A stretch of 6,753 nt of DNA from Candidatus Desantisiibacteriota bacterium (GTDB lineage: Bacteria > JACRDZ01): the NCBI GenBank assembly GCA_016209155.1, contig JACQWU010000277.1:1-6753 (forward strand). Reading direction: 5' to 3'. Below, in pieces: positions 1 through 6,302 of the stretch. The position numbers and the translations under genes were made by a program. Position 1 is the stretch's first letter; every line of letters begins with the position of its first letter. The notes beneath the pieces are model-generated. The model saw only the letters and a list, made by a program, of their open reading frames with translations. It did no database searches and was not told the origin of the DNA.

Positions 1-375
1 AAGGTTTTAGATGTGATGACCAGAGGTGTTGTCTCTGTTCATCTTGCAGACAGCGTGAAAGATGTGGCTAAAACATTAATTGAGAACAAAATTCACGCTG
101 TAGCTGTGATGGATAATAACGGAGATGTTGTTGGTGTTATCTCTGAAATGGACCTCTTGAAGGTGATAAATCAAGACTTGGACCTGACAAGAGCAGAAGA
201 TATTATGTCTTCTTACTTACGAAGTATTACACCTGACTCAAGGATAAGAGAGGCAGCAGAGATAATGTTAGGGCTCAAGGTTCATCGGCTCATCATCCTT
301 CATCCAGAAGGAAGAAGGGCTGTCGGTGTTCTCGCAATCAGTGATATTATCCGAGAGATGACTAAACAAGACTAA
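1..375 (+). CDS. CBS-domain pair protein, C-terminal part (5' end outside window)
   Basis: The frame is open from base 1 and ends with TAA at 373-375, giving at least 124 residues. Two CBS domains follow each other. The first opens with the typical V-x-D-V-M-T-R motif (codons from base 4) and ends near SEMDLLKVI; the second opens with AEDIMSS and ends with GVLAISDIIREM. CBS pairs bind adenine nucleotides or related ligands and usually act as regulatory modules; no catalytic domain is visible in this piece. A GTG at 13 could serve as a start, but it would cut into the first CBS motif, so the true start is probably just upstream of the window. The stop overlaps the purF start (TAATG), which suggests translational coupling and a shared purine-related operon. 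G+C and codon choice match purF and differ from the genes to the right. The CBS assignment is firm; the role is unknown. Confidence 0.85.
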   Translation, partial: KVLDVMTRGVVSVHLADSVKDVAKTLIENKIHAVAVMDNNGDVVGVISEMDLLKVINQDLDLTRAEDIMSSYLRSITPDSRIREAAEIMLGLKVHRLIILHPEGRRAVGVLAISDIIREMTKQD

Positions 376-557
376 TGTGTGGTATATTTGGGGTTTTCGG
401 AGTTAAGGAGGCATCGTCCCTTATTTATCGTGGCTTATTTGCCCTTCAGCATAGGGGTCAAGAGTCAGCTGGGATAGTTGTGTCTGACGGAAAAACACTT
501 CGTCTGCATCGGGGGATGGGGCTTTTGGCACAGGCATTTACAAGCAGTTTATATTGA
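375..557 (+). CDS. purF: Amidophosphoribosyltransferase PurF, N-terminal fragment (truncated)
   Basis: PurF makes 5-phosphoribosylamine from PRPP and glutamine, the first committed step of purine synthesis. The fragment starts MCGIFGVFG, with Cys2 placed as the N-terminal nucleophile of the glutamine amidotransferase class II domain, and continues with LFALQHRGQESAGI, a hallmark of PurF, then LHRGMGLLAQAF. Family resemblance runs to about residue 55 (base ~542); SSLY and the TGA at 555-557 look like accidental read-through of foreign sequence. Full PurF proteins are about 450-500 residues, so the rest of the glutaminase and the whole phosphoribosyltransferase domain are missing. The ATG overlaps the stop of the CBS gene. 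It cannot be functional as it stands. Either the gene was cut by a rearrangement or the contig is joined wrongly here, because the opposite gene is cut at the same place. Identity is very sure; the status as real pseudogene or artefact is open. Confidence 0.88.
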   Translation: MCGIFGVFGVKEASSLIYRGLFALQHRGQESAGIVVSDGKTLRLHRGMGLLAQAFTSSLY

Positions 558-988: not shown

Positions 989-2452
989 TCAGTTTGATAT
1001 TTCAGAATTTGATATTTCCTTTTTTTTATAATTAATAATTTGTTTAAGATATTCGAGATCTTCGCTGCCGATACATCCTGTTACTATAAGTAAAAAGGAA
1101 TAAATTAAAGTGCTTAATATTATAATGAGAAATATGTTTAGTGAGTAAAAAAAATAAGTAAAAATACACATTATAGCTGAGCAAATTGCGGGTTTAAGTG
1201 CTGTTATGAAAAAATCTTTTATAGGCTGCCGCATTTTTTCTATTTGGTATTGCAGAATAAAACCAAAACCAAAAAAAGTAAATACTGTAGAAAGAGAGGC
1301 CCCGACAATACCGTATTTTGGTATTAAAAGCAAATTTAGTATTAAGTTTTGAACCGCGCCGAAAAGCGAAAGGACAAAAACATGTTTTTGCATCCCGGAT
1401 GCATAAAAAATACTTCCGTTTACAATAGCGAAAAAAATAAAGGGTTCTGCCCAGATTAATATTGATAACGCGTTTGAAGCCGGTAAAAAATTATTCCCGT
1501 AAAAAAGATAGATTAATTTTTGGGATAATATTGATGTCCCGAATGCAATCGGAATACTTATTATATTCATATATTTAAACGTCAGATAATTAATCTTCCC
1601 GAATTTATGATTTGATTTTTCAAAATGTGAGCATAATAAAGGAAATATTGATACCATAAACATTCCGGGAATAATATTTAGAGCTTCAGTTAGTTTTACA
1701 ACGGCTGAATATAATCCTAATGTTTTAGCGTCAAAGTGTTTAAATAAAATCAACTGATCAATTCTCATGGTTACTGAACTGAATACGCATGTGAGAAATA
1801 TTGGCCATGCTTCTTTAAGAAGAAAATTCCATATGGTAAAGTCAATTTTATAGATTGGTTGAAAATTACTGATTTTTTTTGAAAAATAGATATAAATAAT
1901 TGTTTGAGGAATAATCAAAAAACTCTGGAGTATAATAAAATAGAAAACAGATACTTTAAGTTTGATAAATAAAAGAGTGAAAATTAAAAAAGCAAGAAGT
2001 GTAAATAGTTCCGGAATTGCATAATAAACAGTTTTAAAATGTATTTGAAACAGGCCCAGATAAATAGTATTAAAACTCATCAGCATACTAAGTGAAGCTA
2101 TATATATAAAGAATTTTATTTCATTTGTATATCCCATAAATTGTAATGAAATATATGAAATAAAAATTGCAGAAACGGAAAAAACAATTTTCATAATTAT
2201 AGCATTACCAATTATATTATTTTGTTTGGAATTGTCTTTGGATATTTCTTTAATTACTATCTGGTCAATACCCAGGGAGGTCAGGATTTGAAAAAAGGAA
2301 AGATATGCAAATACAATACTGAATTTACCGTATCTTTCTTTACCTAAATATCTGACAATTAATAAAGATGCAAGTATAAAAAGAATACTGTAAATTATCT
2401 TGCATATAAGTAATACTATACTATTTATCGCTATTTTCCGTGTTGTACTCAT
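989..2452 (-). CDS. Wzx-like polysaccharide flippase (MOP superfamily)
   Basis: A polytopic inner-membrane protein of 487 residues, the usual length for O-antigen or capsule flippases, which move undecaprenyl-linked oligosaccharide units from the cytoplasmic to the periplasmic leaflet. I count about 12-14 hydrophobic segments, for example 8-33, 43-60, 84-105, 113-136, 145-165, 168-190, 245-270, 291-315, 327-350, 358-378, 417-437 and 438-461. Family signatures are RYLGKERYGKFS (34-45) after the first helix, MRIDQLIL (229-236), and NLLLIPKYGIVGASLSTV (373-390), the typical late motif of the polysaccharide biosynthesis/flippase family. The ATG overlaps the stop of the upstream glycosyltransferase gene by one base (TAATG), with TAAGG just before it, so the two are probably translationally coupled. 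The substrate cannot be told from sequence; the operon suggests a heptose-containing glycan. The C-terminus ends in a short repeat (EISNSEISN). The gene appears intact. Confidence 0.9.
   Translation of the reverse strand: MSTTRKIAINSIVLLICKIIYSILFILASLLIVRYLGKERYGKFSIVFAYLSFFQILTSLGIDQIVIKEISKDNSKQNNIIGNAIIMKIVFSVSAIFISYISLQFMGYTNEIKFFIYIASLSMLMSFNTIYLGLFQIHFKTVYYAIPELFTLLAFLIFTLLFIKLKVSVFYFIILQSFLIIPQTIIYIYFSKKISNFQPIYKIDFTIWNFLLKEAWPIFLTCVFSSVTMRIDQLILFKHFDAKTLGLYSAVVKLTEALNIIPGMFMVSIFPLLCSHFEKSNHKFGKINYLTFKYMNIISIPIAFGTSILSQKLIYLFYGNNFLPASNALSILIWAEPFIFFAIVNGSIFYASGMQKHVFVLSLFGAVQNLILNLLLIPKYGIVGASLSTVFTFFGFGFILQYQIEKMRQPIKDFFITALKPAICSAIMCIFTYFFYSLNIFLIIILSTLIYSFLLIVTGCIGSEDLEYLKQIINYKKKEISNSEISN
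993..1018. repeat. Short direct repeat at the 3' end of the flippase gene
   Basis: TTTGATATTTC occurs at 993-1003 and 1008-1018, a 15-base period that encodes the duplicated EIS-N motif at the flippase C-terminus. It keeps the reading frame and looks like a small slippage duplication without evident function. Confidence 0.5.
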
Positions 2453-3573
2453 TATACCTTATATTTCATTTTAGCTTTTATATTTCTGATAGTGGAATAA
2501 AATTTGTTATCTTCTAATATATAATAAATATCTTTTTTATATACAAAAAAAATTACTTTTGTACAATAATAAAGAATTACAATACTCCTGAACCTAATGT
2601 TTTTCATAAAAAATATTAATAAACATTTAAAATGTTTCCATTTATAATATTTATCAGGTTTTAAGGTTTTTGCCGGCAGACTATTATTAACATTTACAGG
2701 GACAGATACCGGAGGATATTCTTTAAATGAATAATTAGCAAGTCCCCAACTTTCATCATTTACAACAAGCGGATTAAAAAAGAAAGGATTCTTTTTTTTA
2801 TCTTTCATTACTTTATAGAGCTGATCTTCCGGAATATGGTTAAGGTGATAAATAAACATATCCTTTTCATCATAACAGGTAAATAAGAAATAGTTACTAA
2901 TTTGAATCCTTAACAGGAGATCACTGTCAGACCATCCCCAAAGTTGATATTTTTCATCAAATGCATGGCATTCGAACCATAAATCTCTATGCATCATTAT
3001 CCCGTCAGATGGCCCGTAAGTATATGGGACAGGAGGAACAGCAGGTATATTTTCCCTATTTTCCTTAATAAATTTGTCAAGAAAAAATATCGATGGTTTT
3101 TGGCATACCATGTCATATTGCAGTTCTTTACGATTAAAAACAAAAAGAGTTTTTTCGAGTAAAATTTTTTGCTTTTGTTTTCCATCCAGAATATTAAATA
3201 GACGTTTTAAACTTATATCATCCCATAGCACATCAGCTAACGTCTGCATGATAAAAGTTCCTTTTGAACGCCGGATAGCAAGATTCATAACTATCGGGGT
3301 AGGAAAATTATTATCAAATTTTAAATTTTCGAATGAAGTGATTGGAATTAATATAAACCGGGTTATTTGTTTTGCCTGTTCTGTTAAAGATAAAACAGAG
3401 TGTAAAGGGACATCACTCCACCAATCAGCTATAACTATTTCAGCATCTTTTAACCTTCCGAGTCTTTCAAGGGTCATTGCAAGAAAATTTATAGTGGTCT
3501 CCAGACGCCAATTAGCATTCCCCATATAATTGTCATTTCTGGCAGGAATTACAAAAGAAATCAAATTTTCCAT
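2452..3573 (-). CDS. GT-A-type (GT2-like) glycosyltransferase with C-terminal galactosyltransferase-like motif
   Basis: The protein (373 residues) begins like a family 2 glycosyltransferase: SFVIPARND (6-14), then EIVIADWWSD (45-54) where nucleotide-binding aspartates usually lie. A segment with TPIVMNLAIRRSKGTFIMQTLADVLW (92-117) fits the strand leading to the DxD region, but only a single aspartate (D114) is present. DGIMMHRDLWF...AFDEKYQLWGWSDSDLLLR (190-222) matches the pattern of the GT7-C/chondroitin-polymerase type C-terminal module, where the W-G-x-x-D-x-D-L motif contacts acceptor and metal. Residues 316-347 hold a basic, hydrophobic stretch that may attach it to the membrane. It would transfer a sugar to the lipid-linked glycan; donor and linkage are unknown. 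The ATG directly follows the stop of the hddC-like gene (TAAATG) with AGGGGAT as ribosome binding site inside the end of that gene. The middle part (140-185) is not recognised. Confidence 0.7.
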   Translation of the reverse strand: MENLISFVIPARNDNYMGNANWRLETTINFLAMTLERLGRLKDAEIVIADWWSDVPLHSVLSLTEQAKQITRFILIPITSFENLKFDNNFPTPIVMNLAIRRSKGTFIMQTLADVLWDDISLKRLFNILDGKQKQKILLEKTLFVFNRKELQYDMVCQKPSIFFLDKFIKENRENIPAVPPVPYTYGPSDGIMMHRDLWFECHAFDEKYQLWGWSDSDLLLRIQISNYFLFTCYDEKDMFIYHLNHIPEDQLYKVMKDKKKNPFFFNPLVVNDESWGLANYSFKEYPPVSVPVNVNNSLPAKTLKPDKYYKWKHFKCLLIFFMKNIRFRSIVILYYCTKVIFFVYKKDIYYILEDNKFYSTIRNIKAKMKYKV

Positions 3574-4284
3574 TTAAATCCCCTGAATTTTAGATATTAA
3601 TTTATCAGGCTTCTTTTTAAGTTTTAAATAGTCTTCAGGAATCCCGATATCCATGAAAAATTTTTTTATTTTTATTCCATATAAACCATGGTTTATTAGC
3701 ATCGGCAGAATTCCATTCTCAAGTGAAATTGCGCCTTCCGGAATATTATTAATTAATTCACGGTTAATAATATATATCCCGCTATTAATAAAACCTTTAC
3801 CGCTATAACCTTTTTCTATAAATTTAATTATTTCCCCGTTTTCATTAATTTCTATTCTACCATATCGATTTGTATTATCAACATGCACTGTGGCAATTGT
3901 GGCTATTGCTTTTTTATGTTTGTGATAAGAAATAAGCTTATTGAGATCAATAACCAGAAATGAATCTCCATTCATAACAATAAAATTTTTATCTTTGATT
4001 ATTCTTGAGGATTCTCTCAGTGCTCCGCCGGTACCGAGAGGCAATTCTTCCCTGCAATATATTATTTTTACACCCCATTTATCGCCATTTCCAAAGTAAT
4101 CAATTATTTTTTCATTTTTATAACCGACAGAAAGGACTATTTCTTTTATACTCCACTTTTTAAGCTGTAAAATTAAATATTCTAAAAAAGGTTTTTCCCC
4201 GATTAGCGCCATAGGTTTTGGTACATCTTTAATTATTTTTTTTAATCGTGTGCCAATTCCGCCTGCTAAAATAATTGCTTTCAT
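3574..4284 (-). CDS. hddC: D-glycero-alpha-D-manno-heptose-1-phosphate guanylyltransferase-like nucleotidyltransferase
   Basis: A 236-residue sugar-phosphate nucleotidyltransferase, full length for the HddC group. Visible motifs are the signature LAGGIGTRL (6-14) for nucleotide triphosphate binding, PKPM (22-25) with the usual lysine, LGTGGALR (83-90), NGDS (105-108) with the metal-binding aspartate, GFINSGIYII (164-173) and FMDIGIPEDYL (210-220). The last motif, with D212, is typical of HddC and other short GDP/CDP-sugar pyrophosphorylases. HddC forms GDP-heptose from heptose 1-phosphate and GTP in the cytoplasm. The assignment to heptose rather than another sugar rests mainly on the HddA-like kinase two genes upstream; a mannose-1-phosphate or glucose-1-phosphate enzyme is the alternative. 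It lies 20 bases after the DegT gene, has AGGGTGAT as ribosome binding site, and its stop abuts the next start. The gene appears intact. Confidence 0.75.
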   Translation of the reverse strand: MKAIILAGGIGTRLKKIIKDVPKPMALIGEKPFLEYLILQLKKWSIKEIVLSVGYKNEKIIDYFGNGDKWGVKIIYCREELPLGTGGALRESSRIIKDKNFIVMNGDSFLVIDLNKLISYHKHKKAIATIATVHVDNTNRYGRIEINENGEIIKFIEKGYSGKGFINSGIYIINRELINNIPEGAISLENGILPMLINHGLYGIKIKKFFMDIGIPEDYLKLKKKPDKLISKIQGI

Positions 4285-4304: not shown

Positions 4305-5308
4305 TTACGCCTTTTTATCCAAAAATTCTTCTAATACGGTTAGAATATAATCACATTCTTTTTTCCCTAAATTCTGATGTACTCCGATATGAATACCATT
4401 ATTCCCGATATATTCAGCCTCGGGGAAGTCCCCGGGTTTGTAACCTAGAAAATCAAATCCATTACATTGAGTTGGCATGGATGAAAATAAACTGCGTGTA
4501 TCAATATCCTTTTTTTCCATAAAATTAGTGAGTTCATCGCGTGTGAAATTTGCTTTTTCCTGAACAATAATAGGTAAAGCATGCGGACCGATCTCTTCAT
4601 ACGGTTCTTTATTTATTGTAGATAAAAACGGGCTGAATTTTTTAAACTGTTCAATCAAATAATATAAATTTTCTCTTCTTTTATTCAGAATATCATAATA
4701 TATGTCAAGATTACCTAATCCCACCGCTGCTTCCAGTTCATTCATTTTTGAAGAAAATCCGATTCTTTCAAAAATAAATCTTATATCTTTATTATCTCCA
4801 TAGCTAAATCTTTTAGCGCAATAGGCGGATTCTTTATTAAGCAGACAACTTTCACATTTGCATGCCCGTCCGTGACTTCTTAAGGATCTCAATATTTCCG
4901 CGAAATCCGGATTATCCGTTGTTATAATTCCGCCTTCGACAGTTGAAATAATGTGCGCTACATAAAGGCTGAAAGCACCCATATCGGCTAATGTCCCGGC
5001 TTTTTTACCTTTATAAACCGCACCATGTGCTTCAGCGGCGTCTTCAATAACATAAAGCTTATGTTTTTGTGCGATACTGCTGATGGTGTCCATCTCGGCC
5101 GGTTTACCCATAATATGGACAGGCATTATTGCTTTTGTTTTTTTTGTAATATATTTTTTAATTTTAAGAGTATCAATATTGAGTGTATTTCTGTCAATAT
5201 CAACGAAAACGGGTTTGAAACCGGCTTGTAAAATTGCGTTCCCTGTTGCAACGAAAGATAAAGCCGGAACTATAATCTCATCGAGATGGTTCCAAAAGGA
5301 ATTTTCAT
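4305..5308 (-). CDS. DegT/DnrJ/EryC1-family enzyme of the His (3-dehydrase/E1-like) type, N-terminal coding part deleted
   Basis: Fold-type I PLP family acting on nucleotide sugars. The frame in phase with the body is open from just after the hddA stop and reads DEIIVPALSFVATGNAILQAG, PVFVDID, then from the first in-frame ATG (5124-5126) MPVHIMGKPAEMD. Counting from that ATG: YVIEDAAEAHGA (25-36) with the Asp that pairs with the cofactor pyridine; SLYVAHIISTVEGG (53-66), where H58 (codon 4953-4955) replaces the usual Schiff-base lysine; cysteines C89, C91, C94 and C103 followed by KRF; IGFSSKMNELEAAVGLG; a C-terminal GIHIGVHQNLG. The Ala-His motif, the CxC...C-x-x-RF pattern and the end resemble the CDP-4-keto-6-deoxyglucose 3-dehydrase E1 (DdhC/RfbH) and ColD, which remove a C-3 hydroxyl. 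About 60-100 N-terminal residues expected in the family are missing; the probable original start (ATG 5306-5308, MKIPFGTIS) is out of frame. Translation could begin at 5126 (273 residues), but the product would lack the cofactor phosphate-binding region. Confidence 0.72.
5270..5308 (-). other. Orphan start of the DegT gene and deletion/frameshift junction
   Basis: One base after the hddA stop, an ATG (5306-5308) with GAAGG about 12 bases upstream opens MKIPFGTIS, which looks like a normal DegT-family N-terminus. This frame then ends at TAG (5270-5272) after 12 codons. The body of the enzyme (DEIIVPAL onward) begins at once in another frame, at about 5283. The phase change and the missing family segment between the two place a deletion near 5282-5290. 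Confidence 0.65.
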
Positions 5309-5309
5309 T

Positions 5310-6302
5310 TTATAGCCCGCCTTCATTATAATAAATAATTTGACTCCCTAATGAATCAAAACAAAAAGGAACATGCAGCAAAGGGCTTAATGATTTTTTT
5401 AGTTTTTCTTTATTATCCGGTTCAACAAAAAATAAAATAAAACCTCCTCCGCCTGCTCCCAATATCTTCCCTCCAAGAGCTCCATTTTTCAATCCTGTTT
5501 CGTAAATTTTATCTATAGCAGATGTTGTGACTTTATCAGATAAGGATTTTTTTAGTTTCCAGCTTTCATGCAGCATTTTCCCAAATTGAGTAATCTCAGA
5601 TTCCCCGTTTAGAATATTAATTGCTTCATCAACCATTTCAGTCATTGTTTTAATTTCATATTCTTTTTTTTTAATTTGATTTATTTTTTCACCTTCAATA
5701 TCTGTCGCAAATCTTGTAAATCCGGTAAAAAAAAGCATTAAATGAGATTGTAATTCTTTAGATTTTGATGAGCTCATAGGTACCGGAGCAACTTCTATAT
5801 TATGATCTCCGGAAAATACGATTTTATTCAAACCTCCATAAGCAACTATTACCTGATCCTGAGAACCTACATTTTCTTTTATCATATCCTGTTCTATATG
5901 AATGGCTTCAAGGGATAATTGTTTTTTTGATACCATATTTCCTTTAAATGCATAAAAAGTATGTAATAGTCCTACGGTAAAAGCAGAACTTGATCCCAGT
6001 CCAGACCGCGCAGGGAGATCCCCGTCATGATGAATTTCAAGACCTTTTTCAATATTCATAAACCTTAATGTTTCTCTTACAGCAGGATGAACTATTTCAT
6101 TAATTTCTTTAATGTTTTCAATTTTTGAATATACAATTCTATGTTTATATTCAAAAAACGGTGGAAGTTCCCTGCAGCTTATATAACAGTATTTATCAAT
6201 TGTTGTTGATAAAACTGCCCCTCTATTTTCTTTGTACCAGGCAGGGAAATCAGATCCGCCTCCAAAAAACGATATGCGAAATGGTGTTCTGGTTATAATC
6301 AT
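5310..6302 (-). CDS. hddA: D-glycero-alpha-D-manno-heptose-7-phosphate 7... kinase-like GHMP kinase (HddA group)
   Basis: A 330-residue GHMP-family sugar kinase, full length. HddA phosphorylates C-1 of D-glycero-D-manno-heptose 7-phosphate with ATP, giving the 1,7-bisphosphate of the GDP-heptose route. The three GHMP motifs are present: the start MIITRTPFRISFFGGGSD (1-18), typical of the HddA subgroup; DLPARSGLGSSSAFTVGLL (95-113), the ATP-phosphate loop; and GGKILGAGGGGFILFF (277-292). GSQDQ (146-150) carries the probable catalytic aspartate D149. Other kinases of the group (fucokinase or GDP-fucose salvage type) share much of this, but the HddC-like guanylyltransferase in the operon favours heptose. 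It is the first gene of the operon, about 150 bases after the predicted transcription start. The start ATG (6300-6302) is preceded by an eight-G run and, further up, AGGAG. The stop lies one base before the orphan DegT start codon. The gene appears intact. Confidence 0.82.
   Translation of the reverse strand: MIITRTPFRISFFGGGSDFPAWYKENRGAVLSTTIDKYCYISCRELPPFFEYKHRIVYSKIENIKEINEIVHPAVRETLRFMNIEKGLEIHHDGDLPARSGLGSSSAFTVGLLHTFYAFKGNMVSKKQLSLEAIHIEQDMIKENVGSQDQVIVAYGGLNKIVFSGDHNIEVAPVPMSSSKSKELQSHLMLFFTGFTRFATDIEGEKINQIKKKEYEIKTMTEMVDEAINILNGESEITQFGKMLHESWKLKKSLSDKVTTSAIDKIYETGLKNGALGGKILGAGGGGFILFFVEPDNKEKLKKSLSPLLHVPFCFDSLGSQIIYYNEGGL

Follow-up and report, generated by a model that had tools for sequence, protein, structure and literature searches.

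To our knowledge, few sugar 3-dehydrases have been investigated, and a standing question is why E1 requires an iron-sulfur cluster and ColD does not. Both E1-type and ColD-type enzymes yield a 3-deoxy-4-keto product. E1/RfbH (CDP-4-keto-6-deoxyglucose 3-dehydrase, PDB ID 3bcx) has the PMP-type DegT fold with a catalytic histidine at the lysine position (H220, numbering of the PDB alignment) and cysteines at positions 193, 251, 253, 257, and 261, among which we take C193, C251, C253, and C261 to be the Fe-S ligands. SpnQ, the Fe-S 3-dehydrase of spinosyn biosynthesis, uses general ferredoxin or flavodoxin systems (PMC8987622). ColD and the Campylobacter jejuni HS:5/HS:11 enzyme, 62 to 67% identical to it, are also His-type enzymes that act on GDP sugars with an Fcl-like C4-reductase as a partner; the Campylobacter C3-dehydratase removes the C3 oxygen from a GDP-heptose, its native substrate being the 6-deoxy-4-keto-heptose (PMC10440746). 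In vitro, Raushel's group combined Cj1427, a C3-dehydratase, and a C4-reductase, taken from different Campylobacter strains, to produce a GDP-3-deoxy-heptose (PMC10680097). Among the papers that our literature search listed, none other mentions a "3-deoxy-heptose", and we found such sugars described only from this enzyme mixture.

The window analyzed here, a 6,753-nt stretch of DNA, is the entire contig C214 of one metagenome-assembled genome (MAG; 3.08 Mb, 79% complete). Its minus strand encodes an HddA-like GHMP kinase (5310..6302), the body of a His-type DegT enzyme with four clustered cysteines (4305..5309, stop codon at 4305-4307), an HddC-like nucleotidyltransferase (3574..4284), an uncharacterized 373-amino-acid protein without a Pfam match (2452..3573), which probably serves the same polysaccharide operon as a glycosyltransferase, a Wzx-type flippase (989..2452; 88 bits with Polysacc_synt and 72 bits with Wzx_EPS), and the end of a GT4 glycosyltransferase (458-955). 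We consider it reasonably probable that the DegT gene is a disrupted gene for a PMP-dependent C3-dehydratase that represents a third, distinct lineage among the His-type DegT enzymes, has a rearranged Fe-S site, and serves a GDP-heptose pathway. E1 is the top PDB match of the window protein, and the NCBIfam RfbH model (NF011936) is its top model, with 172 bits for the window and 238 bits for the homologue from Solidesulfovibrio magneticus, both below the cut-off of 423. The genome of the window also encodes a genuine E1/RfbH-type 3-dehydrase on contig C336 (L259, DegT frame at ~10381, with EDNCDAL and CWC...C), which falls within the RfbH clade.

The C-terminal DegT frame (4305-5126, minus strand, 273 amino acids) matches Pfam DegT_DnrJ_EryC1 with 181.7 bits. 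Numbered from the ATG at 5126, it has His58 in AHIIST (codon 4953..4955, minus strand) at the position of E1 H220, replacing the Schiff-base lysine. Cysteines are found at positions 89, 91, 94, and 103 and also at 221 and 258; the first four, candidate Fe-S ligands, form the loop CKCESCLLNKESAYC (4818..4862, minus strand). Rereading the sequence confirmed the histidine and the four cysteines ahead of KRF as given in the initial annotation. The ATG at 5126, from which the residues were counted there, proved to be an internal methionine, aligning with Met130 in the undamaged S. magneticus protein, and the DegT reading frame stays open up to 5309. Judging from the sequence, the native start is probably the ATG at 5308-5306, one base past the hddA stop codon (5312-5310). 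This start survives as a remnant (5270..5308, minus strand) that reads MKIPFGTIS and then MRL-stop, homologues beginning with M(K/R)(V/I)PFGT, and the DegT body picks up out of frame at 5282 (DEIIVPALSF). Hence, about 65 N-terminal codons, S. magneticus residues 13 to 77 in the alignment to the intact homologue, are absent from the assembly.

The window copy itself is thus very likely to be functionless, either a pseudogene or an assembly error, given the lost codons and the frame broken at 5282. The contig shows a further anomaly, in that the start of a purF-like frame (375-557, plus strand; MCGIFGVFG, of the amidophosphoribosyltransferase type as judged by eye) reaches the end of the GT4 glycosyltransferase, on the opposite strand, in about 55 codons, indicating a rearrangement or an assembly chimera. 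In addition, a second damaged four-Cys DegT gene, with an in-frame TGA and TAA, is present in another genome (L176, G021:C39:613-1515). However, the remainder of the window frame is intact and retains every invariant residue, and the break would therefore be recent or artefactual.

Intact relatives give the family its outline. The window DegT is 76% identical to its nearest relative, L205, and 60% identical to the S. magneticus enzyme, an intact protein of 401 amino acids encoded on plasmid pDMC1 (WP_148208558). The four-Cys enzyme is present in 30 of the 384 genomes sampled from the phylum group to which an Omnitrophota MAG belongs, in 4 genomes of a phylum group of 19 centered on a Nitrospira-titled MAG, and in 2 of 392 genomes in the phylum group of a Spirochaetia-titled MAG. 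Clear members score ~650 to 770 bits, and the next group scores at most 366 bits. There was no second member among the four genomes of the window organism's own phylum, no four-Cys member at an E value of 1e-120 among the 195 genomes in the phylum group of G007, and no match on plasmids searched by blastn with the window gene. A protein-only scan of viral contigs returned no four-Cys enzyme, and an alignment scan of viral contigs returned one, L088 (IMGVR_UViG_3300020171_002008, 10001-11191), with HddA-like, transketolase, and B12-radical-SAM neighbors; this contig, listed as viral, may be host DNA.

The clusters of the four-Cys enzymes contain an HddA-like kinase, an HddC-like transferase, an Fcl-like C4-reductase, and B12-radical-SAM proteins, with the HddA-like (45 to 59% identity) and HddC-like genes present in most full-length clusters; the window kinase is 56% identical to that of the S. 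magneticus cluster. A homologue of PDB 6vo6 (PDB title, "putative sugar-nucleotide epimerase/dehydratease"), which we take to be the GDP-heptose C4-dehydrogenase Cj1427 of C. jejuni, is encoded in 19 four-Cys clusters and in 6 clusters of a sister group lacking the cysteine loop, with 53 to 65% identity. Among the 384 genomes, and uncorrected for relatedness, the Cj1427-like gene occurs in 22 of the 30 with the four-Cys enzyme, 44 of the 45 assigned to the sister group, and 30 of the 309 with neither; the 8 other genomes with the four-Cys enzyme are without it. The 79% complete MAG of the window has no clear Cj1427 orthologue (best match, 58.6 bits). The cluster of L205 has gmhA above its cut-off, and that of S. 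magneticus has LhgO, an L-2-hydroxyglutarate oxidase, above its curated cut-off, four other clusters holding relatives below it. Cj1427 works in a ping-pong cycle that converts α-ketoglutarate to L-2-hydroxyglutarate (PMC10680097). At the level of the family, the GDP-heptose context first proposed for the operon is thus supported, since the intact clusters hold GDP-heptose enzymes, including that of the Cj1427 type. The C3-deoxygenation of a GDP-heptose is in itself not new, as it is already known in Campylobacter with a ColD-type enzyme (PMC10440746).

A rather unlikely alternative is that the enzyme is a C3-dehydratase for a different GDP-4-keto sugar, either a 6-deoxy-heptose or a hexose, and that the HddA- and HddC-like proteins serve another sugar phosphate. 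The curated NCBIfam cut-offs are missed for both proteins: the window kinase reaches 153 bits with the HddA model NF049969 (cut-off, 600), and the HddC model NF049965 (cut-off, 300), top among all models for the window nucleotidyltransferase, gives 193 bits there and 257 for L205. The kinase is also matched by fucokinase models, and Fcl's own substrate is GDP-4-keto-6-deoxymannose. In the cluster of L205, moreover, a 4,6-dehydratase-like SDR adjoins the enzyme and the Cj1427-like gene is absent, a combination that would give a 3,6-dideoxy sugar. The presence in the clusters of Cj1427-like genes at the identities given above, of GmhA, and of LhgO speaks against this alternative and for GDP-heptose. 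Judging from these gene contents, the intact relatives, found in more than 30 bacteria, probably make 3-deoxy-heptoses.

The histidine, the four cysteines (CxCxxCx8C), and D158-A159-A160-E161 are invariant in 40 of 40 aligned homologous sequences, and the conservation of the four cysteines and the histidine is far beyond chance. This contradicts the possibility, raised at the outset, that the cysteines vary among homologues. Three of the four align with E1 C251, C253, and C261, which are kept together with C193 in all 11 E1-group rows of the alignment; Cys257 is not kept. In contrast with E1, the family has alanine at the C193 position (160) in all 40 sequences and an extra, invariant cysteine in the CxxC motif, in line with the initial proposal that the upstream E1 ligand is absent and that CESC holds a candidate replacement. 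The strongest sign that the loop may still bind a metal cluster is this exchange of C193 for alanine combined with an invariant CxxC cysteine. C348, a fifth conserved cysteine (39 of 40), was set aside as a ligand because five of eight loop-less sister proteins retain it.

In a tree of 74 rows (LG+C20), all His-type proteins split from the Lys-type aminotransferases (support, 100/100). The four-Cys family and its sister group form their own branch (100/100), outside E1/RfbH and ColD, which group together (100/99). The RfbH rows make up a clade (99/98) that excludes the four-Cys family, and the family likewise lies outside the ColD clade; its branch adjoins a further His-type group in which CxCxxC is likewise present (92/88). 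This topology suggests that the four-Cys enzymes are a third branch of His-type 3-dehydrases, apart from E1/RfbH and ColD. SpnQ, which differs in acting on a TDP sugar in an antibiotic pathway, was compared by its description, the tree being without an SpnQ sequence. Two more His-type DegT groups with CxCxxC and a fourth cysteine were also observed (L240-L243 and L252-L255, e.g., GRMCECNVCTRSKGVCP and GRACTCEVCIASDGKNVC); we know of no function for them.

The eight sister proteins inspected keep the histidine and EDAAEAH, and a clean 26-residue deletion removes all four cysteines. They are ~51% identical to the S. magneticus enzyme, are nested within the four-Cys family, and are encoded in the same gene cluster. 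By the extent of the profile match alone, a further ~37 genomes were put in the sister group. Deletion of the loop in the same cluster indicates that the metal site is dispensable for some clusters. Since the E1 and ColD types share their product, loss of the loop likely leaves the reaction as it is and changes the way in which the catalytic cycle is closed.

The same deletion would also fit a ColD-like C3-dehydratase throughout the family, in which the aldimine is hydrolyzed, glutamate serves to regenerate PMP, and the cysteine loop is structural or zinc binding and redox inactive. We regard this as unlikely. An E3-type gene was not found nearby, and the known GDP-heptose C3-dehydratase is of the ColD type (PMC10440746); against this, all 40 sequences have the four cysteines, three of which align with E1 Fe-S ligands, whereas ColD has no cysteines there. 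ColD lacks the loop and belongs to another clade, while in the new family only the nested sister group is without the cysteines. The predicted structure is neutral on the Fe-S reading: the AlphaFold model of L008 shows a DegT fold (mean pLDDT, 93.5) with the cysteine loop, residues 217 to 228, below a pLDDT of 50, and a fold search left E1, ColD, and GDP-perosamine synthase nearly equal and unseparated (Z scores of 51.0 to 49.0). A true DegT aminotransferase whose lysine was merely lost or moved is highly improbable and was rejected, since, although GDP-perosamine synthase is the top fold match (Z 51.0, nearly tied with 49.7 for E1), the histidine is invariant in the family and kept in the sister group, and the intact homologues stand in a clade apart from the Lys-type aminotransferases, a placement among which would have refuted the initial proposal.

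Further genes of the clusters bear on the final sugar. In the clusters L204-L239, genes for a B12-binding radical SAM protein and for split-transketolase or PDH-E1-like alpha and beta subunits stand beside the DegT gene. The two kinds are mostly alternatives to each other: split-transketolase genes are found in 16 clusters, PDH-E1-like genes in 8, both in 1, and neither in 9 (Fisher P = 0.017, uncorrected for relatedness). L213, one of the clusters with neither, carries a third pair of TPP-type genes, which are shorter. These genes suggest TPP chemistry, and the TPP-enzyme and B12-radical-SAM genes point to steps beyond the C3-dehydration route proposed here. In the yersiniose pathway, E1-type 3-deoxygenation comes before branching. 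In both yersiniose and avilamycin, a two-carbon branch is attached at C-4 by a TPP enzyme (PMC4753412). Those are CDP or TDP sugars, whereas here the TPP-type genes, with a putative role, lie in GDP-heptose clusters; the final sugar may be branched in the same manner, or the TPP genes may merely supply sedoheptulose.

The metal, reaction, substrate, and product that we propose are predictions, built on the observed residues, their conservation, the tree, and the gene linkage. A possible pathway would start from sedoheptulose-7-phosphate, which GmhA, the HddA-like kinase, and the HddC-like guanylyltransferase would convert to GDP-D-glycero-D-manno-heptose. Cj1427-like oxidation at C4 would follow, with α-ketoglutarate reduced to L-2-hydroxyglutarate, which LhgO would remove. 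The four-Cys C3-dehydratase would act next, the histidine taking a proton from the PMP ketimine of the GDP-4-keto-heptose and the C3 hydroxyl leaving, and the Fcl-like C4-reductase would then deliver a GDP-3-deoxy-heptose for a surface glycan. The CxCxxCx8C loop would hold a [2Fe-2S] or, less likely, a [4Fe-4S] cluster next to PMP, at the place of E1 C251, C253, and C261, with the extra cysteine of CxxC standing in for C193. The neighbors of the four-Cys enzymes also differ from those of E1/RfbH in being GDP-heptose genes and not rfbG or other CDP-sugar genes. A search for E3-type reductases in 36 genomes, many of them draft MAGs, gave no FAD_binding_6 match out to 80 kb from the enzyme. Electrons would thus be supplied by general ferredoxin or flavodoxin systems, the arrangement reported for SpnQ.

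Comparison with the described systems suggests that this family is probably a further variant among the E1/ColD sugar 3-dehydrases, one acting on GDP-heptose. More speculatively, and with somewhat less than even confidence, we propose a third lineage of Fe-S 3-dehydrases that carries its ligands in one 15-residue loop and makes GDP-3-deoxy-heptoses, perhaps TPP branched, for the surface glycans of little-studied bacteria, Omnitrophota among them, and in which later deletion of the loop would represent a natural switch from an E1-like to a ColD-like enzyme. Because one family, in one conserved cluster, occurs with and without the cysteine loop, close relatives can be compared directly. Omnitrophota is a phylum known chiefly from genomes. 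Whereas the in vitro route joined enzymes of different strains, homologues of its three enzymes are linked here in natural clusters, which resemble a natural GDP-3-deoxy-heptose pathway and point to an undescribed sugar of the Omnitrophota.
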